Origin: Pseudomonadota bacterium
GTDB lineage: Bacteria; Pseudomonadota; Gammaproteobacteria; Xanthomonadales; Xanthomonadaceae
Direction of reading: 5' to 3'
Length of the DNA stretch: 64,000 nt
Assembly (NCBI GenBank): GCA_018240435.1
Contig: JAFEFT010000013.1
Location: forward strand, 31,822 to 95,821
The notes under the pieces: model-generated
The model's input: the letters and a program-made list of their open reading frames with translations, nothing else
What the model was told of the DNA's origin: nothing
Databases searched by the model: none
Translations under genes and position numbers: made by a program
Shown: positions 27,235-38,628 of the stretch, in pieces
How positions within the stretch are numbered: position 1 is the stretch's first letter
Layout of the letters: every line of letters starts with the position of its first letter

Positions 27235-27455
27235 AAGCGGCTTCCAGCGTGCGGACAATCGGGCAATGGTACCGGGCAAGGGCGCGGCAAGTCCATGCCG
27301 GGCGGTGAAAGCGCCACGCCCCCGTGACCGACGTACGCCGCCCGATTCACGGTCGATTCACGACTTGCGGGCCCCTCGCCGGCGCCAGTATGCTGGCGCC
27401 GTGTGGTCGGGAAACGGCCCGTCGCCATCCCGCCCCTTCGCTGTCGCCAGATGCC

Positions 27456-28052
27456 ATGCCTTCCGCTCGCCGCCCCGGACCGACCTTGACCCGCGAACCG
27501 TCCAGCCGTCCTGCCGCGAACGAAAACCACCTGCTGATCAATGCCAGCGCTGCGCACCCCGATTCGCCCCTGCTCGCCTTGAGCCGGCGCATCGCCGAGA
27601 GCGGCTGCAACCTCGCCGATGCGCGCCTGTCCACGGTCGGCCACGACGTGTCGGTGACGGCGCTGGCAGTCGGTTCGTGGGACGCCGTGGCCAAGCTCGA
27701 GGCGATGCTGGCACGCCTTGAGCGCGAGGAAAAAAACATCAAACTGATGTGGAACCGCACCTCGCCCAAGCCGCTGCAGACCAACCTGTTGCCCTACATC
27801 GTCGAGGTGGTGGCGGCCGACAAGCCGGGCATCCTGTTCCAGCTCGCCGATTTCTTCGACCGCCTCGGCATCAGCATCGAGAACCTGTCGTGCTCGCGCT
27901 ACCGCGCCATGCAGACCGGCGCCGAGATGTTCACCGCGCAAGTCACCATCGGCGTGCCCAGCAACATGCACATCGCCGGCCTGCGCGACGACTTCCTCGA
28001 GTTCTGCGATCACCTGAACCTCGATGCGATCATGGACCCGATGAAGTTCTGA
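27456..28052 (+). CDS. gcvR: Glycine cleavage system transcriptional repressor GcvR-like (ACT domains)
   Basis: A 198-residue protein with two ACT domains: an N-terminal one from about residue 23 (HLLINASAAHPDSPLLALS) and a second one from about 110 (YIVEVVAADKPGILFQLADF). In E. coli GcvR binds glycine and antagonises GcvA at the gcv promoter. ATG 27456 was chosen because the upstream open frame lacks family similarity. It sits between dapA (divergent) and bcp (16 bases downstream), an order typical of xanthomonads. Regulation by glycine here is inferred from the family. Confidence 0.87.
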   Translation: MPSARRPGPTLTREPSSRPAANENHLLINASAAHPDSPLLALSRRIAESGCNLADARLSTVGHDVSVTALAVGSWDAVAKLEAMLARLEREEKNIKLMWNRTSPKPLQTNLLPYIVEVVAADKPGILFQLADFFDRLGISIENLSCSRYRAMQTGAEMFTAQVTIGVPSNMHIAGLRDDFLEFCDHLNLDAIMDPMKF

Positions 28053-28068
28053 CCGATCGAGAACCGCG

Positions 28069-28545
28069 ATGCCCGACATCGGCGACCGCATCCCCGAGAC
28101 CGCATTCACCCTGCAAACGGGCGCCAGCGCCCGCCTTGCCGACCATGCCGGGCGCTGGCTGGTGCTGTATTTCTATCCGAAGGACAGCACCCCCGGCTGC
28201 ACCGTCGAAGGCAACGATTTCAACGCCCTGCTGGCGAATTTCAAACGTGCAGGCGCGACCGTGCTGGGCGTGTCGCGCGACTCGGTGAAGTCGCACCAGA
28301 ACTTCTGCACGAAACAGGGCTTCAAGTTCGATCTGGTCAGCGATGGCGACGAGGCGCTGTGCCGTGCCTTCGACGTGATCCACGAGAAGAACATGTACGG
28401 CAAGAAGGTGCTCGGCATCGTCCGCAGCACCTTCCTGATCGACCCGGCGGGCCGCATCGCCGACCTCTGGCGGCCGGTGAAAGTGCAAGGCCACGCCGCG
28501 GCGGTGCTGGCCTCGTTGCAGCAGCTGCGCAAGGCCAAGCCCTAG
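28069..28545 (+). CDS. bcp: Thioredoxin-dependent peroxiredoxin (BCP/PrxQ)
   Basis: Reduces hydrogen and organic peroxides with electrons from thioredoxin. The 158-residue product has the peroxidatic Cys44 in YPKDSTPGCTVEG. The usual resolving cysteine five residues later (CxxxxC) is replaced by Asn49. Other cysteines are present in QNFCTKQGF and EALCRAFD and could resolve the sulfenate, as in other PrxQ subtypes. It is co-directional with gcvR and phoH. Confidence 0.95.
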   Translation: MPDIGDRIPETAFTLQTGASARLADHAGRWLVLYFYPKDSTPGCTVEGNDFNALLANFKRAGATVLGVSRDSVKSHQNFCTKQGFKFDLVSDGDEALCRAFDVIHEKNMYGKKVLGIVRSTFLIDPAGRIADLWRPVKVQGHAAAVLASLQQLRKAKP

Positions 28546-28674
28546 CGTGCACCGCGCGCCGGCGTCCTCCCGCCCGACCGCGCGCGGCGCCCTGTGCGCC
28601 GCCGCCTGCGTCGCGATTGCCGGCACGCATGCACCCTTGCCGATTTTCCTGACGAACCCGAAAAGGCCCACGCC

Positions 28675-30105
28675 GTGACTCCCAACGACAAGCGCATCTT
28701 CGTGCTCGACACCAACGTGCTGATGCACGACCCGACCGCGTTGTTCAAGTTCGAAGAGCACGACGTGTTCTTGCCGATGATGGTGATCGAGGAACTCGAC
28801 GCGGCCAAGAAGGGCAATTCCGAAGTCAGCCGCAACGCGCGCCAGGTCAGCCGCTTCATCAACGAGCTGATCGAAGGCAACCGCAACGGCGGCATCGAGG
28901 GCGGCCTGCCGCTGACTCATCCCAAGGCGCTGCAACTGAAGGTCAACGCCAACGTCGGGCGCCTGTATTTCCAGGTCGACGGCGGCGAAGCGAAGAAAAA
29001 GGCCGCCGCGGCCAGCCTGCCCGGCGCCGCCAAGACCCATCTGGCCGACAACCAGATCATCGCCGCAGTGATGGAATTGCGCGCCGCCCGCCCGGACGAG
29101 CCGGTCGTGCTGGTGTCCAAAGACATCAACATGCGAATCAAGGCCTCGATCGCCGGCATCACCGCCGAGGATTACGAAAACGATCGCGCGCTCGACGATT
29201 TCAACCTGCTGTTCACCGGCGCCGCCGAATTGCCGGCCGACTTCTGGGAACGCCACGACACCGACTTGCGCAGCTGGCCGGAGAAAGGCCGCACCTGGTA
29301 CGAGGTGAAGAAACGCGACGACGAAAACTGGCACCCGAACCAGTTCCTCTATCTGCCCGGCGAGGAGGACGTCGAGCTGTGCGTGGCCAAGGCCGAGGGC
29401 GACAAGGCGACGCTGCGCATCGTCGACGACTTCCGCCATGCGCAGCGCTCGGTGTGGGGCATCACCGCGCGCAACCGCGAGCAGAACTTCGCGCTCAATG
29501 CGCTGATGGATCCGGAGATCGATTTCGTCACCCTGCTCGGCACCGCCGGCACCGGCAAGACCCTGCTCGCGCTCGCCGCGGGCCTGGCGCAAACCATGGA
29601 CCAGCAGCGCTATCGCGAGATCATCATGACCCGCGCCACGGTCAGCGTCGGCGAGGACATCGGCTTTTTGCCCGGCACCGAAGAAGAAAAGATGACGCCG
29701 TGGATGGGCGCACTGACCGACAACCTCGAAGTGCTCACCCGCACTCCGGCCGAGAACGGCGCCTGGGGCCGCGCCGCGACCAACGACCTGCTCGCCTCGC
29801 GGATCAAGATCCGCTCGCTCAACTTCATGCGCGGGCGCACCTTCCTCAACCGCTGGCTGATCCTCGACGAGGCGCAGAACCTCACCCCGAAGCAGATGAA
29901 GACGCTGATCACCCGCGCCGGCCCGGGCACCAAGATCGTCTGCCTGGGCAACGTCGAGCAGATCGACACGCCGTATCTGACCGAAACCACCTCCGGCCTG
30001 ACTTACGCCGTGGACCGTTTCAAGGACTGGGCACACAGCGCGCACATCACCTTGCGCCGCGGCGAGCGCTCGCGGCTGGCCGACTATGCGTCGGAGGTGC
30101 TGTAG
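28675..30105 (+). CDS. PIN-PhoH fusion ATPase/ribonuclease (PhoH2-like)
   Basis: A 476-residue protein with an N-terminal PIN nuclease domain (Asp12 in VLDTNVLMHDP, then IEELDAAKKG and LVSKDINMRIKA) and a C-terminal PhoH ATPase domain (Walker A GTAGTGKT from residue 289; Walker B LILDEAQN near 396). PIN-PhoH proteins studied in other bacteria unwind and cleave RNA. The GTG start at 28675 has AAGG nine bases upstream; the longer open frame is not supported. It follows bcp, as in other xanthomonads. Confidence 0.93.
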   Translation: MTPNDKRIFVLDTNVLMHDPTALFKFEEHDVFLPMMVIEELDAAKKGNSEVSRNARQVSRFINELIEGNRNGGIEGGLPLTHPKALQLKVNANVGRLYFQVDGGEAKKKAAAASLPGAAKTHLADNQIIAAVMELRAARPDEPVVLVSKDINMRIKASIAGITAEDYENDRALDDFNLLFTGAAELPADFWERHDTDLRSWPEKGRTWYEVKKRDDENWHPNQFLYLPGEEDVELCVAKAEGDKATLRIVDDFRHAQRSVWGITARNREQNFALNALMDPEIDFVTLLGTAGTGKTLLALAAGLAQTMDQQRYREIIMTRATVSVGEDIGFLPGTEEEKMTPWMGALTDNLEVLTRTPAENGAWGRAATNDLLASRIKIRSLNFMRGRTFLNRWLILDEAQNLTPKQMKTLITRAGPGTKIVCLGNVEQIDTPYLTETTSGLTYAVDRFKDWAHSAHITLRRGERSRLADYASEVL

Positions 30106-30218
30106 GGGTCGCGACGCCGGACTCGCCACTCGCGGCTCGGCGTTCTGGATCCCGGGCTGGGATCGCGGAAGCCGACTGTCGGGAAAGATATCCCTGTACA
30201 CTTGAAGTTGATGTATTT

Positions 30219-30232
30219 GCAATCATGATTGC
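30219..30232. promoter_or_regulatory. Perfect palindrome upstream of XRE regulator, operator candidate
   Basis: GCAATCATGATTGC is a 14-bp perfect palindrome in an AT-rich stretch 66 bases before the XRE gene start. A further TTGCAA follows at about 30237. Such a site is what an XRE-type dimer would bind for autoregulation. It would also control the downstream hyf-like genes if they are one operon. Confidence 0.5.
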
Positions 30233-30297
30233 GATCTTGCAAATGCATATTCCCATCTGCGATGCTGGCGCCGGTCACTTTCCCCTGGCATTTCCCG

Positions 30298-30549
30298 ATG
30301 ATTTCCTCGGCCCAGATGCGCGCTGCGCGCGCTTTGCTCGGCATCGACCAGCGCGAGTTGGCGCGCCTGGCCGGGGTGTCGCTGCCCACCGTGCAGCGAA
30401 TGGAAGCCAGCAACGGCGTGGTGCGTGGCGTGGTCGGCACGCTCACCAAGGTGGTGAATGCACTGGAAGCCGCCGGAATCGAGCTGATCGGCAATGACCA
30501 GGCCAGCCAGGGCCGCGGCCGCGGAGTACGGCTGAAGGATTCGCCATGA
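30298..30549 (+). CDS. Small XRE-family DNA-binding regulator
   Basis: An 83-residue protein (ATG 30298) with a helix-turn-helix at about residues 7-50 (AARALLGIDQRELARLAG, then VSLPTVQRMEAS) and a short C-terminal helix (ALEAAGIELIG) seen in single-domain XRE regulators. Its stop overlaps the start of a 34-codon open frame, which in turn ends two bases before hyfB. It is thus the head of a contiguous unit with the hyf-like genes and a natural candidate for their regulator. Ligand or signal is unknown. Confidence 0.82.
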   Translation: MISSAQMRAARALLGIDQRELARLAGVSLPTVQRMEASNGVVRGVVGTLTKVVNALEAAGIELIGNDQASQGRGRGVRLKDSP

Positions 30550-30650
30550 GCATCGACCCGGCAACCGTCGCGACGCACGCACACCGCCTGATCGCACCGC
30601 TTCGAACGACAGCACTTCGCGCCCACCACGAGGGCGCGCGCAACGGTTGA
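30546..30650 (+). CDS. Short open frame bridging XRE regulator and hyfB (uncertain)
   Basis: A 34-codon frame starts with an ATGA overlap on the XRE stop and ends with TGA two bases before the hyfB ATG. The peptide (MSIDPATVATHAHRLIAPLR at the start) has no recognisable family. It may only provide translational coupling to hyfB, or be a chance frame in high-GC DNA. Confidence 0.25.
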   Translation: MSIDPATVATHAHRLIAPLRTTALRAHHEGARNG

Positions 30651-30652
30651 CG

Positions 30653-32650
30653 ATGGCCGCCGAACTGCTGCCGGCGGCGCTATGGGTGGCCTGTGGCTGG
30701 ATCGGGATCGGCCTGGCCGGGTTGTTGCGCCCGCGCGATCTGGTCTTCACCGGCCGCGTGCTGTTCACGCTGGGCATGCTCGGCGGGCTGGCGCTGCTGG
30801 TGATCGGGGTGCTCGCGCTGGATGCGCCGGCGCAGTCGCTGGTGCTGCCGCTGGGCCTGCCCGACCTGCCCTTCCACCTGCGCCTGGATCCGCTGGCGGC
30901 GGTGTTCCTGGCGCTGATCGGCGGCGCCTCGGCCGGCATCTCGGCGTATTCGGCCGGCTATTTCCGCGCCGGCGAGGGCGCTGCGCCAGGCCTGCTGTGC
31001 CTGCAGTACCACGTCTTCCTCGCCAGCATGACGCTGGTGGTGCTGGCCGACGATGCCTATGGCTTCATGGTCGCCTGGGAGACGATGGCGCTGGCCTCGT
31101 ACTTCCTCGTCACCACCCAGCACCGGGTGCCGGAGATCCGCAGCGCGGGCTTCCTGTACCTGCTGCTGGCGCACGTGGGCGCGATCGCGATCCTGCTGTG
31201 CTTCGGCGTGCTCCAGGGTGGCTCGTGGCAGTTCACATTCGAGTCCATGCGTGCCGCCTCGCTGGCGCCCTGGCAGGCCGGCGCGGCGTTTGCGCTGGCG
31301 GTGTTCGGCTTCGGCGCCAAGGCCGGCCTGCTGCCGCTGCACGTGTGGCTGCCCGAAGCGCACCCGGCCGCGCCCTCGCCGGTGTCGGCGCTGATGAGCG
31401 GGGTGATGATCAAGATCGCGGTCTATGGCCTGATCCGGGTCTGCTTCGACCTGCTGCACCTGCACCCCTGGGGCTGGGGCGCCGTGCTGCTGGCGCTGGG
31501 CGCCCTCACCGCGCTGTTCGGCGCGGTGTTCGCGGCGGTGCAGACCGACATGAAGCGGCTGCTGGCGTATTCGTCGATCGAGAACATCGGCATCATCCTG
31601 TCCGGGGTCGGGCTGGCGCTGCTGTTCGCCGGCCTGCACATGCCGGTCCCGGCAGCGCTGGCGATGACCGCCACCTTGTACCACTGCCTCAACCATGCGC
31701 TGTTCAAGAGCTTGTTGTTCCTGGCCACCGGCTCGGTGCTGCACGCCACCGGCGAGCGCAACCTGGGCAAGCTCGGCGGGCTGATCCACCGCATGCCCTG
31801 GGTGGCCTGGCTGGCGCTGATTGGCACCCTCGCCACCGCCGGCCTGCCGCCACTCAACGGCTTCGTCTCCGAATGGCTGCTGCTGCAGGCCTACCTGTAC
31901 ACGCCGGCATTGCCACACACGATCATCAACATGCTCGCCCCGCTGGGCGCGGCGGCATTCGCGCTGACGGTGGCGCTGGCCGCCTACGTGATGGTGAAGT
32001 TCTACGGGGTGATCTTCCTCGGCCGGCCACGCGAGGCCAGGCTGGCGCAGGCGCACGATGCCGGCTGGCTGGAGCGGCTGGGCCTGGCCTGGCTGGCGCT
32101 GGGCTGCATCGCGCTGGGACTGGCGCCGGTGTGGGTTCTGCGCGTGCTCGACGGGGTCGAGCGGATGCTGTTCGGCGCCAGCGTCGCCAACCCGTCCGGG
32201 CATGGCTGGCTGCTCGCGCCGATCGCCGCCGCGCGCGCCTCCTACGGAGCGCCGGCGTTCGCGCTGGGCATCGCCCTGGCCTGCGCGGCAACCTTTGCGG
32301 TGGTGCGTCTGCTCTATCACGGGCGCGTCCGCCGCGGCGATGCGTGGGATTGCGGCTTCGCTGCGCAGAGCGCGCGCATGCAGGACACTGCCGAGGGCTT
32401 CGGGCAGCCGATCCGGCGGGTGTTCCGGCCGTTCTTCCAGATCCGGCGACTGCAACCCGATCCGTCCGATCCGGCGCCACGCTACGAGCTGCAACTGGCC
32501 GATCCGAGCTGGAACTGGCTGTACCTGCCGATCACCGCCGGCGTGCAGGCACTGGCGCGATGGGTCGGCTTCCTGCAGAGCGGACGAATCGCGATCTACC
32601 TGCTGTACAGCTTCCTGACCCTGCTCGCCCTGCTGGTGTTCGTGCTGTGA
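30653..32650 (+). CDS. hyfB: Hydrogenase-4/complex I-like antiporter subunit HyfB
   Basis: Membrane subunit of 665 residues in the NuoL/M/N-Mrp antiporter family, about fifteen hydrophobic helices. The two charged residues expected for proton translocation are present: Glu in MVAWETMALASYF and Lys in FGAKAGLLPLHVWLPEAH. The C-terminal region (RRGDAWDCGFAAQ) is the HyfB/HycC-type extension. It is the first structural gene of a six-gene cluster. Its stop overlaps the hyfC start. It should form part of a proton or sodium channel in the membrane arm. Confidence 0.92.
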   Translation: MAAELLPAALWVACGWIGIGLAGLLRPRDLVFTGRVLFTLGMLGGLALLVIGVLALDAPAQSLVLPLGLPDLPFHLRLDPLAAVFLALIGGASAGISAYSAGYFRAGEGAAPGLLCLQYHVFLASMTLVVLADDAYGFMVAWETMALASYFLVTTQHRVPEIRSAGFLYLLLAHVGAIAILLCFGVLQGGSWQFTFESMRAASLAPWQAGAAFALAVFGFGAKAGLLPLHVWLPEAHPAAPSPVSALMSGVMIKIAVYGLIRVCFDLLHLHPWGWGAVLLALGALTALFGAVFAAVQTDMKRLLAYSSIENIGIILSGVGLALLFAGLHMPVPAALAMTATLYHCLNHALFKSLLFLATGSVLHATGERNLGKLGGLIHRMPWVAWLALIGTLATAGLPPLNGFVSEWLLLQAYLYTPALPHTIINMLAPLGAAAFALTVALAAYVMVKFYGVIFLGRPREARLAQAHDAGWLERLGLAWLALGCIALGLAPVWVLRVLDGVERMLFGASVANPSGHGWLLAPIAAARASYGAPAFALGIALACAATFAVVRLLYHGRVRRGDAWDCGFAAQSARMQDTAEGFGQPIRRVFRPFFQIRRLQPDPSDPAPRYELQLADPSWNWLYLPITAGVQALARWVGFLQSGRIAIYLLYSFLTLLALLVFVL

Positions 32651-33597
32651 ACCTGCCTGCCCTGTCGTCGAACCTGCTCGATGCGGCACTGTCCATCGCC
32701 GCGGCGCCGCTGCTTGCCGGCTGGGTCGAGGTGTGCCGCGCGCGCTTGCAGAACCGCCGCGGCGCCGGCGTCCTGCAGCCGTACCGCACCATCCGCAAGC
32801 TGCTGCACAAGGACGTGGTGCTTGCGCACGGCGCCTCGCCGCTGTTCCGCGCCTCGCCCTATGTGCAGTTCGCGGCGATGGTGCTGGCGGCGGCGATCAT
32901 CCCGACCTTCGGCGCGCAGGCACCGCTGGGGATCGCCGCCGACACCATCGCCCTGGTCGGGGTGTTCGCGATCGCGCGGGTGCTGGCAGCGCTGGCGGCG
33001 ATGGACATCGGCACCGCGTTCGGCAGCCTCGGCGCGCGCCGCGAAATGCTGATCGGCTTCCTGTCCGAGCCGGCGCTGCTGATGGTGCTGTTCACCGCCT
33101 CAATGATCTCGGCCAGCACCCAGCTGACGAACATCGTCGGCGAATTGGGGCACGCGCGCCTGGCCATCTATCCCAGCCTGGCCTTCGCCGCCACCGCCTT
33201 CGTGATGGTGCTGCTGGCCGAAAACGCGCGCATCCCGATCGACAACCCGGCCACCCACCTCGAACTGACCATGATCCACGAAGCCATGGTGCTGGAGTAC
33301 TCGGCCCGCCACCTGGCGCTGATCGAATGGGCCAGCGCGCTCAAGCTGTTCAACTACATGGCCATCGGCATCGCCCTGTTCCTGCCTTGGGGCCTGGCCG
33401 GGCCGGAGGCGGGACTGGCCGCGGCCGCCGGCGCCTGGCTGCTGGCCGTGGCCAAGCTCGCCGCCGCCGGCGCCGGGCTGGCGCTGATCGAGACGCTCAG
33501 CGCCAAGCTGCGCATCTTCCGCGCCCCCGAGTTCCTCGCCACCGCCTTCCTGCTGGCGGTGCTCGGCCTGCTGGTCCACCTGCTGCTGGAAGCCTGA
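32647..33597 (+). CDS. hyfC: Hydrogenase-4/complex I subunit 1-like protein HyfC
   Basis: NuoH-related membrane subunit of 316 residues that connects the redox module to the antiporter subunits. The GTG start overlaps the hyfB stop by four bases (GTGA). The NuoH-type cytoplasmic loop appears as AENARIPIDNPATHLEL followed by HEAMVLEYSARHLALIEW, rich in acidic residues. About eight hydrophobic helices. HyfC/HycD is the closest family by sequence pattern. Confidence 0.92.
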   Translation: MNLPALSSNLLDAALSIAAAPLLAGWVEVCRARLQNRRGAGVLQPYRTIRKLLHKDVVLAHGASPLFRASPYVQFAAMVLAAAIIPTFGAQAPLGIAADTIALVGVFAIARVLAALAAMDIGTAFGSLGARREMLIGFLSEPALLMVLFTASMISASTQLTNIVGELGHARLAIYPSLAFAATAFVMVLLAENARIPIDNPATHLELTMIHEAMVLEYSARHLALIEWASALKLFNYMAIGIALFLPWGLAGPEAGLAAAAGAWLLAVAKLAAAGAGLALIETLSAKLRIFRAPEFLATAFLLAVLGLLVHLLLEA

Positions 33598-33600
33598 GCC

Positions 33601-34263
33601 ATGCCCAGCTACGCCTCCCAGCTGATCAACCTGTGCGCGGCGCTGATGCTGCTGACCTCGTTCGCGATGATTTCGCAGCGGCGCATCCGCTCTCTGGTCA
33701 ACCTGTACGCGCTGCAGGGCCTGGCGCTGACGGTGTCCATCGCCATCGTCGCCGCTGCTTCCGGACAGCACCACCTGTATTTTTCGGCGGCGCTGTCGGG
33801 CGTGCTCAAGGTGCTGGCGCTGCCGTGGATCCTGCACCGGCTGATCGCACGCCTGGACGTGCGCTGGGACCCGGAACCGCTGATCAACATCCCGACCACG
33901 ATGCTGGTCGGCATCGTGCTGGTGGTGTTCGCCTTCGGTCTGGCGCAGCCAGTCGCGCAGCTGGCCACCACCATCGCCCGCGGCACCCTCGGCATCGCCC
34001 TGGCGGTGGTCCTGCTGGCGTTCCTGATGATGATCACCCGCACCAAGGCGATCTCGCAGGTGATCGGCTTCCTGGCGATGGAGAACGGCCTGTTCTTCGC
34101 CGCCACCAGCGCCACCTACGGCATGCCGATGGTGGTGGAACTGGGCGTGGCGCTGGACCTGCTGGTCGGCATGGTGGTGCTGGGCGTGTTCTTCTTCCAG
34201 ATCCGCGAGCAGTTCGACAGCCTCGACCTGCTGCACATGGAAAAACTCAAGGAGGAGGACTGA
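33601..34263 (+). CDS. hyfE: Hydrogenase-4 component E-like membrane protein HyfE
   Basis: A 220-residue membrane protein of the HyfE family, related to NuoK/MnhC. Six hydrophobic segments are visible, with YFSAALSGVLKVLALPWILH in the middle and the C-terminal FFFQIREQFDSLDLLHMEKL motif. It starts three bases after hyfC and ends two bases before hyfF. Role: small membrane subunit of the ion-translocating arm. Confidence 0.9.
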   Translation: MPSYASQLINLCAALMLLTSFAMISQRRIRSLVNLYALQGLALTVSIAIVAAASGQHHLYFSAALSGVLKVLALPWILHRLIARLDVRWDPEPLINIPTTMLVGIVLVVFAFGLAQPVAQLATTIARGTLGIALAVVLLAFLMMITRTKAISQVIGFLAMENGLFFAATSATYGMPMVVELGVALDLLVGMVVLGVFFFQIREQFDSLDLLHMEKLKEED

Positions 34264-34265
34264 GC

Positions 34266-35717
34266 ATGGAGCTATGGCTGCTGCTCGCCTGCCCCCTGAT
34301 CGGCAGCCTGCTGCTGGGCGTGATCGGCGCGCGGCGGTGGGCGCCGGAGGTCAACGCCGCCATCAGCCTGGCAACGTTCCTGGCCAGCGTCGCGCTGAGC
34401 ATGCAGGTGATCGCGCACGGCCGGCTGCTGGCCGGCCACGAGCAGTTCCTGGTCGATCCGTTCAACGTGTTCCTGGTCGCGCTGACCGCCTTCGTCGGCC
34501 TGACCACTGCCCTGTTTTCGCGTCCGTACATGCGCATCGAGATGCAGCGCGGACACATGAACCCGGCGCGGCTGCGGCTGTACCACAGCATGTACCAGCT
34601 GTTCGTGTTCACCATGCTGCTGGCGCTGCTGACCAACAACCTGGGCCTGCTGTGGGTCGCGATGGAGGCGGCCACGCTCTCGACCGTGCTGCTGGTCGCG
34701 CTGTACCGCACCCCGGCCAGTCTGGAGGCGGCATGGAAGTATTTCATCCTGTGCGGGGTGGGCATCGCCCAGGCCCTGTTCGGCACCATCCTGCTGTACT
34801 TCGCGGCCGAAAAGGTGCTTGGCGCGCACGGCAGCACGGCGCTGCTTTGGACCCACCTGGACGCGGTCAAGGGCCAGCTCGAACCGACCGTGCTGGCGCT
34901 GGCCTTCGTGTTCCTGCTGGTCGGCTACGGCACCAAGGTCGGCCTGGCGCCACTGCACAACTGGTTGCCCGACGCCCACGCCGAAGGCCCCACGCCGATC
35001 TCGGCGGTGCTCTCGGGACTGCTGCTCAATGTCGCCCTGTACGCGGTGGTGCGCTGCAAGGTGCTGGTCGATGGCGCCGTCCACAGCGGCCTGGCCAGTT
35101 CGCTGATGATGGGCTTCGGCCTGCTCTCGGTGCTGCTGGCGACGTTGTTCCTGTTTCGCCAGAAGGACATCAAGCGCCTGTTCGGCTATTCCTCGATCGA
35201 GCACATGGGCATCGTCACCTTCGCTTTCGGAATGGGCGGACCGATCGCCAACTTCGCCGCGCTGCTGCACATGACCGTGCATTCGCTGACCAAGTCGGCG
35301 ATCTTCTTCACCGTCGGTCACGCCACCCAGAAAGCCGGCAGCCAGTCGATGGACGCCATCCGCGGCCTGATCGGAGTCAGCCCGACGATCGGCTGGGGAA
35401 TGATGCTCGGTACTCTGGCGATCCTCGGGATGCCGCCGTTCGGGGTATTCGCCAGCGAGTTCTTGATCCTCACCACGGCGATGCGCGAGCATCCGTGGGC
35501 GACGCTGCCGCTGCTGTTCGCGCTGGCGATCGCCTTCGCGGCAATCTTCGGTCGGGTGCAGGCGATGGTGTTCGGCAGCAGCAACCTCCAGCGCCTGCCG
35601 CACTCGCCGGCGCTGCTGCCGGTGTTCGCACACATGGCGCTGGTGTTGTGCCTGGGCCTGTACATCCCGCCGGTCCTGGCCACCTGGTACCGGCTCGCAG
35701 CGGCGCTGATCGGATGA
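34266..35717 (+). CDS. hyfF: Hydrogenase-4 subunit F-like antiporter HyfF
   Basis: Second antiporter-like subunit of the cluster, 483 residues. It has the family glutamate in LLWVAMEAATLSTVLLVA and the lysine in GYGTKVGLAPLHNWLPDAHA, plus a second lysine segment (HSLTKSAIFFTVGH). E. coli Hyf has three such subunits (B, D, F); this cluster has two. Its stop overlaps the hyfG start (ATGA). Confidence 0.92.
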   Translation: MELWLLLACPLIGSLLLGVIGARRWAPEVNAAISLATFLASVALSMQVIAHGRLLAGHEQFLVDPFNVFLVALTAFVGLTTALFSRPYMRIEMQRGHMNPARLRLYHSMYQLFVFTMLLALLTNNLGLLWVAMEAATLSTVLLVALYRTPASLEAAWKYFILCGVGIAQALFGTILLYFAAEKVLGAHGSTALLWTHLDAVKGQLEPTVLALAFVFLLVGYGTKVGLAPLHNWLPDAHAEGPTPISAVLSGLLLNVALYAVVRCKVLVDGAVHSGLASSLMMGFGLLSVLLATLFLFRQKDIKRLFGYSSIEHMGIVTFAFGMGGPIANFAALLHMTVHSLTKSAIFFTVGHATQKAGSQSMDAIRGLIGVSPTIGWGMMLGTLAILGMPPFGVFASEFLILTTAMREHPWATLPLLFALAIAFAAIFGRVQAMVFGSSNLQRLPHSPALLPVFAHMALVLCLGLYIPPVLATWYRLAAALIG

Positions 35718-37264
35718 ACGCGCATCCCTTCGCCACCCTGCCCGGCCTTGCGACCCTGCCTGGCGCCCTGCGCGCCCGCCACGGCACGGCGCACCGCGAG
35801 CACCTGCCGCAGCTGTGCCAGGCGGTGGCCGACGCCGGCGGCCACCTGCTCGCCCTGTGGGGCAGCGACGAGCGCGATCGTGGCAAAGGCTTCACCCTGT
35901 CTCTGGCCTTGCACGACGGCGCCGACCTGGTGGTGGTGGAGGCCGCGCTGGATGCCGAAGACCCGCACCACCCCGACCTGTCCGCCATCCTGCCGGCCGC
36001 CGCGCGCATGCAGCGCGCCAACTGCGACCTCACCGGCATCCGCGCCGACGGCGGCGATCCGCGCGGCTGGCTGGATCACGGTCACTGGTCGGGATCGGCC
36101 TTCCCGCTGCGCCGGCTGCCCGAAGCAATGCCGGCAGCGACGGCAGATCCGGCCGACTATGCCTTCGTGCGCGTGGCCGGCAGCGGCGTGCACGAGATCG
36201 CCGTCGGGCCGGTCCATGCCGGGGTGATCGAGCCGGGGCATTTCCGCTTTTCGGTGGTCGGCGAGAAGCTGCTGCGGCTGGAGGAGCGCCTGGGCTACAC
36301 CCACAAGGGCATCGAGCGCCGCTTCCAGGACTTGACGCTGGCGCAGGGCGCGCCCCTGGCCGCGCGCATCTGTGGCGATTCGACCATCGCCTTTGCCTGG
36401 GCCTGGGCGATGGCGGTCGAAGCGCTCACCGGCACCGCGCCGCCGCCGCGCGCGCTGGCCCTGCGCGCCCTCCTGCTGGAGCGCGAACGCCTGGCCAACC
36501 ACCTCGGCGACCTGGGTGCGCTGGGCAACGACGGCGGCTTCGCCTTCGGACTGAGCCAGTTCATGCGCCTCAAGGAAGATCTGCTGCGCAGCAACGCCGC
36601 CGCGTTCGGTGCCCGCTACCTGCTCGACGCCCTCGCGCCCGGCGGCACCCGCGTCGACCTGAGCGAAGACGCCCGCGCCCGCCTGCTCGGCGAGGTCGCC
36701 CCGCTGGAAGCCCAGCTGCGCACCCTGCGCGCGATCTACGACGACCACGCCGGCCTGCAGGATCGTTTCATCGGAGCCGGCCGCGCCAGCCCGGAGTTGG
36801 TCGCGAGGCTGGGCGGCATCGGTCTGGCCGCGCGCGCCAGCGGGGCGCGCCGCGACTGGCGGGTGGATCTGCCAGTGGCGCCCTACGACTGCCTCGACGT
36901 GCGCGTGGCCAGCCGCAGCGACGGCGACGTCGCCGCGCGGGTCGCGGTGCGCTTCGACGAGGCGTTCGAATCGCTGCGCCTGTGCCGGATCCTGCTGGAG
37001 ATCCTGCCGACCGGCCCGGTGACGGCAGCGGTCGGGCCGGTGCTTGCCGAGGGCCTGGCTCTGGGCGGCGTGGAAGGCTGGCGCGGGCCAGTCCTGCTGG
37101 CGCTGCGCGCCGACCCGGACGGGCGCATCCGCCGCTGCCACCCACACGATCCGTCGTGGCAGAACTGGCCGCTGATCGAACATGCCGCCCTGCCCGACAT
37201 CGTTGCTGATTTCCCCCTGATCAACAAATCGTTCAACCTTTCCTACAGCGGCCACGACCTGTAG
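35714..37264 (+). CDS. hyfG: HyfG-like large subunit lacking NiFe ligands (Ehr type)
   Basis: A 516-residue fusion of a NuoC-like domain (about 25-155) and a NuoD/hydrogenase large-subunit domain (165-516), as in HyfG/HycE. In true group 4 hydrogenases two CxxC motifs bind NiFe. Here the first reads RICGDST (Cys220 kept, second Cys replaced by Ser223). The C-terminus ends FNLSYSGHDL where the second CxxC and the protease-recognition arginine should be. There is no C-terminal extension to cleave. Three of four ligands are thus absent, which defines energy-converting hydrogenase-related (Ehr) proteins. It overlaps hyfF by four bases and is 15 bases before hyfI. Substrate unknown. Confidence 0.92.
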   Translation: MNAHPFATLPGLATLPGALRARHGTAHREHLPQLCQAVADAGGHLLALWGSDERDRGKGFTLSLALHDGADLVVVEAALDAEDPHHPDLSAILPAAARMQRANCDLTGIRADGGDPRGWLDHGHWSGSAFPLRRLPEAMPAATADPADYAFVRVAGSGVHEIAVGPVHAGVIEPGHFRFSVVGEKLLRLEERLGYTHKGIERRFQDLTLAQGAPLAARICGDSTIAFAWAWAMAVEALTGTAPPPRALALRALLLERERLANHLGDLGALGNDGGFAFGLSQFMRLKEDLLRSNAAAFGARYLLDALAPGGTRVDLSEDARARLLGEVAPLEAQLRTLRAIYDDHAGLQDRFIGAGRASPELVARLGGIGLAARASGARRDWRVDLPVAPYDCLDVRVASRSDGDVAARVAVRFDEAFESLRLCRILLEILPTGPVTAAVGPVLAEGLALGGVEGWRGPVLLALRADPDGRIRRCHPHDPSWQNWPLIEHAALPDIVADFPLINKSFNLSYSGHDL

Positions 37265-37279
37265 CCGCGCCCGACCGCC

Positions 37280-37792
37280 ATGCTCAAGACCCTCCGTCAG
37301 ATCGCCCGCATCGGCGTGGCCAGCGAACCGCCGCCGGCGCCCGACCCATCCCTGCTCAGCGCCGAGCAGTTGCACGCCGAACTTTGGCGCATCCTCGGCC
37401 GCGCTCTATGCCTGCGGATGGTCGATGCCGGATCGTGCAACGCCTGCGAACTGGAAGTGCAGGCACTGGGCAACCCCTATTACAACATCGAGGGCCTGGG
37501 CATCCGCTTCGTTGCCAGCCCGCGCCACGCCGACGTGCTGCTGGTGTCCGGGCCGGTCGGGCGCAACATGGAGCAGGCCCTGCGCCGAACCTGGGCGGCG
37601 ATGCCCGATCCCAAACGGGTGGTCGCGATCGGCGACTGCGCCGCCTGCGGCGGCGTGTTCGGCACCAGCTACGCCTGCCACGGCGGCGCCGCCAGGGTGA
37701 TCCCGGTCGATGTGACCATCCCCGGCTGCCCGCCGTCGCCGACGCAATTGCTGCGTGGCATTCTCGCCGCCGCCGGTGCCCGGCCATCCTGA
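37280..37792 (+). CDS. hyfI: HyfI/NuoB-like iron-sulfur small subunit
   Basis: A 170-residue small subunit with the four cysteines expected for the proximal 4Fe-4S cluster: Cys53 and Cys56 (GSCNACELE), Cys120 (GDCAACGG) and Cys150 (PGCPPSP). The CxxC spacing is hydrogenase-like, not the tandem CC of NuoB. The cluster is intact although the partner HyfG has lost NiFe ligands. No HyfH/NuoI-type ferredoxin gene is present, so how electrons reach this centre is unclear. Thirty-odd N-terminal residues may contact the membrane. Confidence 0.92.
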   Translation: MLKTLRQIARIGVASEPPPAPDPSLLSAEQLHAELWRILGRALCLRMVDAGSCNACELEVQALGNPYYNIEGLGIRFVASPRHADVLLVSGPVGRNMEQALRRTWAAMPDPKRVVAIGDCAACGGVFGTSYACHGGAARVIPVDVTIPGCPPSPTQLLRGILAAAGARPS

Positions 37793-37815
37793 ACCCGCCA
37801 GCCAATCCTCCGCCG

Positions 37816-38628
37816 ATGTCCTCCGATCCAGTCCTCTGCGCCCTGACCATCGCCGGCTCCGATTCCGGCGCCGGCGCCGGCATCCAGGCCGACCTAAAGA
37901 CCTTCGCCGCCCACGGCGTGCATGGGCTGTCGGCGATCGCCGCGCTGACCGCGCAGAACACCCGCGGCGTCGCCGCCATCCACCTGCCGCCGGCAGCATT
38001 CCTGAATGCGCAGATCGACGCCTGCTTCGACGACTTTCCGATCGGCGCGGTCAAGATCGGCATGCTCGCCAACGCGGCGGTCATCGCCGCCGTCGCCGCT
38101 GCCCTCGAACGCCACCGCCCGCCGCAGGTCGTGCTCGATCCGGTGATGATCGCCACCTCCGGCGCCCGTCTGCTCGATGCCGACGCCCTCGCCGCGCTGC
38201 GTGACCGACTGCTGCCGCGGGCCAGCCTGCTGACCCCGAACATCCCCGAAGCCGAGACGCTGCTCGGCCACCCGATCGCCGATGCCGCTGCGGCCGACGC
38301 CGCGCTGGCCGAGTTGCTGGCGCTGGGGGCGCCGGCGGTGCTGCTCAAGGGCGGCCACCTGCCCGGCGACGGGGCGATGCTCGACCGCTATGGCGATCAC
38401 AGCCAACGCGCCGTCTTCAGCCACGAGCGGCTCGACGTGCAGCCGCACGGCACCGGCTGCACGCTGGCTGCCGCCATTGCCGCCAACCTGTGCCATGGCG
38501 GCGAGCTCTTGAAAGCCTGCGCGGCGGCCACAGACTATGTCCACGGGGCGCTGCGGAACTCCTGGCGCCCGGCGCACTCGAAGGTATCGCTGCTCGACCA
38601 TTTCTGGCAGCATCATCGCGTCAACTGA
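37816..38628 (+). CDS. thiD: Hydroxymethylpyrimidine (phosphate) kinase
   Basis: Phosphorylates HMP and HMP-P in thiamine synthesis. The 270-residue ribokinase-fold product begins with the substrate-binding LTIAGSDSGAGAGIQADLKT segment and has the C-terminal anion-hole motif HGTGCTLAAAIAANL. ATG 37816 lies 23 bases after hyfI, so it may be transcribed with the hyf-like genes, though functional linkage is not obvious. No TPP riboswitch is seen upstream. Confidence 0.95.
   Translation: MSSDPVLCALTIAGSDSGAGAGIQADLKTFAAHGVHGLSAIAALTAQNTRGVAAIHLPPAAFLNAQIDACFDDFPIGAVKIGMLANAAVIAAVAAALERHRPPQVVLDPVMIATSGARLLDADALAALRDRLLPRASLLTPNIPEAETLLGHPIADAAAADAALAELLALGAPAVLLKGGHLPGDGAMLDRYGDHSQRAVFSHERLDVQPHGTGCTLAAAIAANLCHGGELLKACAAATDYVHGALRNSWRPAHSKVSLLDHFWQHHRVN

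Follow-up and report, generated by a model that had tools for sequence, protein, structure and literature searches.

A predicted Hyq-type complex with a remodelled, NiFe-free large subunit encoded in a Xanthomonadaceae genome

The closest experimentally studied relative that we found for the operon treated here is hyqRBCEFGI of Azorhizobium caulinodans, an 'endo-hydrogenase' published between 2009 and 2012 (PMC2650096, PMC2930871, and PMC3357923). These papers credit HyqG, a protein without the NiFe motifs, with fast and reversible H2 chemistry, which would mean either that hydrogenases of a novel type exist or that observations on living cells were misinterpreted. We have analyzed six homologous genes, hyfBCEFGI, at positions 30653-37792 on the + strand of a 64-kb window (the whole stretch under study, 64,000 nucleotides of contig JAFEFT010000013.1 from a member of the Xanthomonadaceae). 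They are predicted to encode a Hyq-type energy-converting-hydrogenase-related (Ehr) complex (HyqBCEFGI), belonging to a family already known and, within it, to a branch that lacks the cysteines reported for HyqG. The host carries this cysteine-less branch, and searches of its genome detected neither hyp genes nor a nitrogenase nor any further hydrogenase of the NiFe or FeFe type, so the disputed H2 claim could be tested there. Since no other hydrogenase was found in this host, a hyq-dependent H2 signal would come from the complex, and the absence of such a signal would favor a redox reading.

In PMC2650096, hyq is induced via NifA, HyqG is taken for the NiFe subunit, and deletion of hyq slows N2-dependent growth by about 20%, even with 20% H2. 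According to PMC2930871, deletion of hyq lowers N2 fixation by nodules from 31 to 25, an effect not seen when hupSL is lost. An effect of the hyq deletion despite H2 supply, and none for hupSL, would be expected if part of the role of the complex is not H2 oxidation. The same source gives nodule H2 evolution as 0.30 in the wild type, 0.32 in the hupSL mutant, 0.36 in the hyq mutant, and 27 in the hupSL hyq double mutant, and reports that H2 recycling persists after complete deletion of hup/hyp. H2 recycling is also claimed for R. centenum, which has hyq and no hup/hyp (PMC2930871/PMC3357923; data not presented there). PMC3357923 adds hyq-dependent H2 evolution below 1 micromolar O2, as well as the statement that HyqG proteins of eight genera are without both CxxC motifs and have three completely conserved cysteines. 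In the open-access literature (subscription journals being mostly uncovered) we found no paper on an Azorhizobium hyq hydrogenase beyond these three, nor a later one among the 12 best matches from 2012 on.

The large subunit of the window's operon, HyfG (HyqG; 35714-37264, + strand, 516 residues), is a fused NuoC-NuoD/hydrogenase-large-subunit-like protein whose NiFe ligand set is gone, as judged from profiles and alignments. Its residues 72-513 match HycE, subunit 5 of E. coli formate hydrogenlyase (FHL), with E=8e-55. The place of the first NiFe CxxC is taken by C220-G-D222-S223 (RICGDST; 36371-36382, + strand). That of the second lies in the C-terminus INKSFNLSYSGHDL (residues 503-516; 37220-37261, + strand), where the motif reads S510-Y-S-G513 (NLSYSGHDL-stop). 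NiFe cysteines 2, 3, and 4 are thus Ser, Ser, and Gly, and C220 is the one retained of the four; the protein stops 3 residues past the position of cysteine 4 and has no C-terminal extension. All four cysteines are present in HycE, in E. coli HyfG, and in three hydrogenases from the window's order (L017-L019) in the same alignment. The first-pass annotation, a reading of the sequence made before this analysis, had described three of the four cysteines and the extension as absent and had proposed an alignment of HyfG with HycE, NuoD, and other Ehr proteins; that alignment was run, and with HycE and other group 4 proteins as references it upholds the loss.

To follow these positions through the family we started from the HyfG-type matches of 137 loci and set aside rows that were not complete (L067), the copies from the window itself, NuoD, and controls; the resulting set comprises 124 rows, 123 of them distinct and many closely related. 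The column of NiFe cysteine 1 holds Ser in 105 rows, Cys in 10, Ala in 8, and Val in 1; that of cysteine 2 holds Ser (106), Thr (16), and Ala (2); that of cysteine 3 Ser (111), Ala (8), Asn (4), and Cys (1); and that of cysteine 4 Gly (122) and Ala (2). C220, standing in a column that is mostly Ser, was rejected as a relic of NiFe binding. HyfG has no family-wide conserved cysteine, the best column reaching 77/124. What the family does share, among the positions printed of the 124-row alignment, is a set of residues identical in every row: H197, D222, R259, H263, D273, R351, D381, R383, D405, R413, R457, G458, D479, S481, W485, D499, F500, P501, N504, K505, S506, Y511, and D515. At four of these (D222, D479, N504, and K505) HycE, the NuoD of the window's genome, and five other Ehr rows differ. 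The invariant residues are concrete targets for mutants.

Two further positions relate the pocket to its homologs. Glu173 of HyfG (36230-36232, + strand) is, in an ungapped alignment block with 6cfw_L, the equivalent of MbhL Glu21, the proton-reduction residue of MBH, and it is Glu in all 123 rows having a residue there (one gap). The complex I quinone residues Nqo4 His38 and Tyr87 (T. thermophilus numbering) align with Ile172 and Gly221; the family has Ile in 123/123 rows with a residue at the first position and Gly in 123/124 at the second. The roles of MbhL E21 in proton reduction and of Nqo4 H38/Y87 in quinone binding are taken from excerpts of PMC7684303. Quinone binding of the complex I type as such was rejected, with His38/Tyr87 replaced by Ile/Gly. 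Compared in this way, the old NiFe site retains the hydrogenase-type glutamate without conserved thiolates, unlike both the quinone site of complex I and the open cluster of MBS. By homology, D222, K505, D515, R457, and E173 may line one cavity.

The small subunit, HyfI (HyqI; 37280-37792, + strand, 170 residues), is NuoB-like, with one hydrogenase-type [4Fe-4S] site formed by C53, C56, C120, and C150, and matches HycG, FHL subunit 7 of E. coli (E=3e-34). These cysteines are kept in 123, 123, 123, and 122 (one gap) of 123 family rows. The first two are spaced as CxxC, as in MBH, and are neither tandem, as in complex I, nor part of a three-cysteine cluster such as that of MBS. The membrane arm is encoded by hyfB (30653-32650, ATG start), for a NuoL-like antiporter-type subunit of 665 residues; hyfC (32647-33597, GTG start), for a NuoH-like protein of 316 residues whose acidic loop AENARIPIDNP begins at residue 191; hyfE (33601-34263, 220 residues); and hyfF (34266-35717), for an antiporter-like subunit of 483 residues, all on the + strand. 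In alignments with the E. coli proteins, E143, K223, K254, and K352 of HyfB and E134, K224, and K343 of HyfF fall on identical residues; at the place of HyfB K254, HyfF has Asn255, as does E. coli HyfF.

The six genes are intact and tightly packed, with gaps of -4 to 15 bp. Among curated profiles only HyfB (NF005086, 870.8 bits, cut-off 667) and HyfF (NF005045, 849.4 bits, cut-off 543) score above cut-off; HyfE (NF008556, E=2.2e-28, and alignment with E. coli HyfE), HyfC, HyfG, and HyfI match the HyfE, NuoH, NuoD, and NuoB families below it. In Pfam, NADHdh (PF00146, 111.8 bits for HyfC, which also rests on alignment), Complex1_30kDa, Complex1_49kDa, and Oxidored_q6 are above cut-off, and HyfE has no match when the window's proteins are compared. 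The first-pass annotation fares well on these points: gene calls, profiles, and E. coli matches agree with its six packed hyf genes, the four Fe-S cysteines of HyfI that it saw are conserved throughout the family rows, and the Glu/Lys residues that it noted in both antiporter-like subunits are indeed retained. Its assignment to the Ehr type, the NiFe loss, and the lack of detected hyp genes stand as well, and it missed the Hyq relative, the XRE gene described below, the invariant residues, and the lack of conservation of C220.

The A. caulinodans operon itself was not found among the loci examined using primers from PMC2650096, and the ortholog of R. johnstonii 3841 (R. leguminosarum; L102) served as a stand-in for its HyqG. 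The window agrees with Hyq in its six structural genes and in their order, it has the invariant HyqG residues, and its HyfG falls into one tree group with the ortholog that the Hyq papers name for R. leguminosarum. In R. johnstonii a helix-turn-helix (HTH) gene stands in the place of hyqR, overlaps hyfB, and matches the XRE gene of the window at 62% over 80 residues. The window differs in lacking the three reported HyqG cysteines, and its host in having no detected nif, hyp, or other NiFe hydrogenase genes. The reported cysteines (A. caulinodans 258, 491, and 497) correspond in R. johnstonii to cysteines at 491, 497, and, one off, 259; in the window these positions hold I503, L509, and G271, respectively. 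All three occur together in 37/124 rows and none in 69/124, the window included; 13 rows have the first two, 2 the first and third, and 3 a single one. Taken singly, the columns hold Cys in 53, 52, and 39 of the 124, and the trio was rejected as a family-wide metal site. Because the window is without them, we class it as a Hyq-type Ehr belonging to a cysteine-less branch and do not call it Hyq in the strict meaning of the name.

In a tree of 61 rows, all 50 sampled Hyq rows, the window among them, form one group with support of 100/97. Five other Ehr rows adjoin it, and together with these the family makes up one supported group. Five NiFe rows appear in two places, those of E. coli nearer to Ehr and L017-L019 with NuoD, whose own row is very long. 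With such long branches the deeper order is unsure, and the tree does not demonstrate the intermediate position, halfway from group 4 hydrogenases to complex I, that had earlier been proposed for the complex.

The host genome (3.18 Mb, 99.96% complete by the tool's figure) was searched for partners of H2 chemistry. HypA and HypD were not found in the whole genome, E. coli being positive as the control, nor was a match to PF00374 (NiFe hydrogenase) above cut-off; the sole PF00374 match, below cut-off, falls at the NuoD-like gene and not at HyfG. No FeFe hydrogenase and no nitrogenase-family protein was found in the genome either, and each of these searches had a positive E. coli or other control genome. 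Within the 64-kb window, tblastn with E. coli proteins (E<=1e-3) returned no homolog of HyfA, HyfH, HyfJ, HycI, HyfR, HypA, or HypB, in line with the earlier remark that hyp genes and HyfH/HyfA are missing near the operon. By gene content, with no HyfH/HyfA homolog in the window, the operon has neither an NADH module nor a NuoI-type Fe-S subunit. NuoB- and NuoD-like complex I genes are present in the genome. Three molybdopterin-family proteins are encoded elsewhere in it, one of them on the same contig, past the NuoD-like gene.

Across 46 Hyq-bearing genomes, nitrogenase-family PF00148 is above cut-off in 17 and at E<=0.001 in 18 (0/10 in the window's order), and HypD is present in 17 (3/16 in one set and 14/30 in the other). 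Both HypD and nitrogenase occur in 13 genomes, HypD only in 4, nitrogenase only in 4, and neither in 25. Neither HypD nor PF00148 was found, for example, in G299, the genome of Rhodanobacter lindaniclasticus that contains locus L045. This sample is biased, as 30 of its genomes were taken for matching the R. johnstonii protein best among 53 positives in the order of a Devosia metagenome-assembled genome (MAG), and completeness is given for 10/46. HypD was also missed in G171 and G156 (90% and 82% complete), both with CxxC-bearing group 4 proteins, so that, except in the window's genome, an individual absence carries little weight. Obligatory ties to nitrogen fixation and to hydrogenase maturation were each rejected on the count of 17/46, and within these limits of sampling and completeness the tally speaks against a general restriction of hyq to diazotrophs. 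The excerpts of PMC2930871 describe hyq as generally absent from non-diazotrophs. In three loci (L140, L141, and L142) hup, hyp, and hyqBCEFG are contiguous on one strand, as identified by profiles for L140 and L142 and by similarity for L141, and the HupL motifs of L140 are intact. In G550, G599, and G653 the match coordinates place hypD and hyqG about 6.5 kb apart, the same distance as in these loci, which suggests the same arrangement. The excerpts of PMC2930871 call the hup-hyp and hyq sets unlinked in its tabulated strains.

From this evidence we tentatively favor, at just short of an even chance, an Ehr-type oxidoreductase that translocates protons and whose pocket, free of NiFe, has been remodelled. 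A soluble low-potential carrier of the ferredoxin or flavodoxin type would exchange electrons with the HyfI cluster, no dedicated donor subunit being encoded, and at the altered pocket of HyfG (D222, K505, Y511, D515, and R457) a substrate would take or give electrons, with protons delivered through E173. The substrate would most likely be a quinone, from the HyfC/HyfG/HyfI chamber, bound in a mode unlike that of complex I, and the membrane arm would couple the redox reaction reversibly to proton movement. In diazotrophs the complex may feed or drain the low-potential electron pool of nitrogenase; in the window's host it would serve as an additional coupling site next to complex I, probably under the control of the linked XRE protein.

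Several points weigh against this proposal. Its carrier and quinone steps are ones that we only infer, and since the complex I quinone residues are missing, a quinone may not be the substrate at all. The H2 phenotypes of A. caulinodans are not explained by a redox mechanism without extra assumptions, and the hup-hyp-hyq gene order argues for a real link to H2 metabolism in one bacterial group. In addition, the AlphaFold model of HyfG (predicted local distance difference test 81.7, predicted template modelling score 0.86) is unreliable exactly at residues 138-198 and 512-516, so that the geometry of the pocket is not fixed by it.

A NiFe-free H2:quinone oxidoreductase, as claimed for Azorhizobium Hyq, which would split or make H2 at a non-NiFe site of HyfG and pass electrons through the HyfI cluster, has several observations in its favor: hyq-dependent H2 uptake and evolution are reported for A. 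caulinodans even after hup/hyp deletion (excerpts of PMC2930871 and PMC3357923), R. centenum is said to recycle H2 with hyq and without hup/hyp (data not presented there), and hup-hyp-hyq contiguity in L140, L141, and L142 would fit. We nevertheless consider it unlikely, as the A. caulinodans H2 evidence in these excerpts is genetic, HyfG offers no conserved cysteine (77/124 at best), and HypD and the nitrogenase family are each present in 17/46 Hyq-bearing genomes.

The cysteine counts could instead reflect two activities, the cysteine branch, mostly alphaproteobacterial, handling H2 at some metal site and the cysteine-less branch, with the window, carrying out other redox chemistry. The split between rows with all three HyqG cysteines (37/124) and with none (69/124) broadly follows the tree. 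It is not all-or-none, however, with 13 rows having two cysteines, 2 the first and third, and 3 one, and the remaining invariant pocket residues are common to both branches; such a division seems improbable to us. A bolder reading, in which H2 exchanges electrons at a site without Ni-Fe thiolates or a conserved cysteine, through an invariant Asp/Lys/Tyr/Arg/Glu pocket beside the [4Fe-4S] cluster, is very unlikely. If true, such cysteine-free H2 exchange would be a further kind of hydrogenase chemistry, in hosts without detected maturation genes.

There is little probability that the complex is a sulfane-sulfur or other reductase that, in the manner of MBS/Mbx, carries out catalysis at an Fe-S cluster. 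MBS, a relative whose structure is solved, has likewise lost NiFe function (excerpts of PMC7684303), but, according to the same source, its catalysis needs a three-cysteine proximal cluster, where HyfI has four conserved cysteines with hydrogenase spacing, and it lacks the E21 that is invariant here. MBS-type catalysis as such was rejected on the four HyfI cysteines.

We regard as very unlikely, too, that the complex drives uptake of inorganic carbon or an anion together with a SulP-family transporter. Of 52 named loci whose upstream sequence extends over 2.5 kb or more, 7 have a SulP-like gene 5' of hyfB in the same orientation, SulP/STAS profiles being found on four of the proteins; none was detected in the other 45, and the SulP/bicarbonate link would be a weak one. 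The seven loci (L031, L042, L050, L064, L067, L096, and L100) are titled Betaproteobacteria and Methylobacter/Methylothermaceae.

HyfG is matched in 17/299 genomes of the window's order (E<=1e-30). By alignment, nine further genomes encode a protein of the window's type (L004-L012; L020 is a second copy in G033), three encode a second Ehr kind (L013-L015, with L021 in the already counted G230), one a third (L016), and three true group 4 hydrogenases with all cysteines (L017-L019). The two further NiFe-less HyfG kinds (L013, L014, L015, L016, and L021) end in AGCDR and AETDR. A scan of named genomes gave at least 579 encoding stretches, the best 80 of which, those retained, carry titles of Beta-, Gamma-, and Alphaproteobacteria, Nitrospirae, Mariprofundus, two acidobacterial names, and others. 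Sixty-one plasmid records match at E<=1e-20, 57 of them with a single place covering at least 80% of the query, and 53/397 genomes in the order of the Devosia MAG (G305, locus L092) match the R. johnstonii protein at E<=1e-60. The full set of six genes stands where expected in 63/84 named loci. Among the remaining 21, L034, L083, and L084 depart within the contig, and for the other 18 the contig ends before every gene that is missing. Of the two Hyq copies of G033, L005 is near the window's branch and L020 lies inside the alphaproteobacterial branch, a distance that suggests transfer (or a contaminating contig). In public annotation the HyfG of L105 is a 'nickel-dependent hydrogenase large subunit' and that of L103 a 'hydrogenase expression protein HypE', with the NiFe cysteines missing in both.

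The nearest copy of the operon is that of the same-genus genome G280, at 72%. Against it, dN/dS is 0.06-0.09 for hyfB, E, F, and G by YN00 and 0.28-0.43 for all six genes by NG86; the operon is under purifying selection. We therefore give almost no credence to a degenerate, non-functional hydrogenase remnant, for which the loss of NiFe ligands, the patchy occurrence of the operon (not found in same-genus G245), and the treatment of Geobacter Ehr as non-functional in the excerpts of PMC13194489 could speak, against six intact genes, low dN/dS, and a new invariant residue set in records titled Pseudomonadota and Nitrospirae.

The locus shows gain and loss of the operon. The gene order is gcvR-bcp-phoH-XRE-hyf-thiD in the window and gcvR-bcp-phoH-DUF1275-thiD in a relative without a HyfG match (G001), while another (G075) shows only a 33-residue DUF1275 match. 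In G245 the order is XRE-DUF1275-thiD, and gcvR, bcp, and phoH were not found in the stretch fetched. The operon and its XRE gene (window 27324-38628) thus occupy the DUF1275 place of relatives without the operon (L150, L151, and L152). DUF1275 is also near hyf operons in L049, L053, L056, L057, L061, L103, and L104, and so may mark an exchange site. The gcvR-bcp pair lies 5' of hyf in the window (27324-28545, with phoH and XRE between) and directly before hyfA in E. coli MG1655 (L137), which may reflect a shared old location or coincidence.

Upstream of hyfB, a small XRE-type HTH gene (30229-30549, + strand; HTH_3 above the Pfam cut-off) is, by place and homology, the likely regulator of the operon, hyqR-like, and probably starts at an internal ATG. 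Its homologs lie directly 5' of hyfB in G280 (L139) and in L086, L093, L097, L102, and L103, and 3' of the operon on the opposite strand in L107, L108, L110, L111, L114, and L125. Clustering of neighboring genes in 80 loci and the window revealed no electron-donor partner common to many loci; a pyridine-nucleotide oxidoreductase-like cluster occurs in 3, and metG, a spermidine-synthase-like gene, and DUF1275 looked positional. Restricted to open reading frames of at least 90 amino acids and crude in its choice of frame, so that a read-through frame replaced hyfG of the window itself, this screen would not have picked up small ferredoxin genes.

Set beside known systems, the operon is homologous to the B, C, E, F, G, and I genes of E. 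coli hydrogenase-4/3 (HyfA-R, HycA-I), which likewise has gcvR-bcp next to hyf; the E. coli system differs by its intact NiFe cysteines, its longer C-terminus, and the presence of HyfA, D, H, J, and R and of hyp genes. As a group 4 [NiFe] hydrogenase the complex fails on three counts, namely the NiFe cysteines, the hyp genes, and the C-terminal extension. Both HyfG and HyfI match 6u8y, which we take to be the MBS structure. The MBS/Mbx of Pyrococcus furiosus is, like the window's complex, a complex I relative that has lost NiFe function, and differs in having a three-cysteine proximal cluster and no E21, where the window has four cysteines and Glu173 (excerpts of PMC7684303). Cupriavidus metallidurans CH34 and C. 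necator H16 have the same six genes, hyfBCEFGI, and CH34 HyfG (L104) belongs to the family; the excerpts of PMC2864759 describe this set as resembling an incomplete hyf operon and very unlikely to serve lithotrophic growth, and assign it no function.

The term Ehr is reportedly that of Coppi 2005 and Marreiros 2013; its present usage can be seen in excerpts of PMC6349859 and PMC13194489. The window's complex differs from some Ehr in that no formate dehydrogenase or NuoE/F-like genes, as proposed for those, were noted near the operon, nor a HyfH-like ferredoxin subunit. What it shares with Ehr complexes, and what makes the label given in the first-pass annotation a fitting one, is a set of group 4 hydrogenase/complex I subunits in which the NiFe-coordinating residues are missing and the antiporter-like subunits, with their charged residues, are retained.

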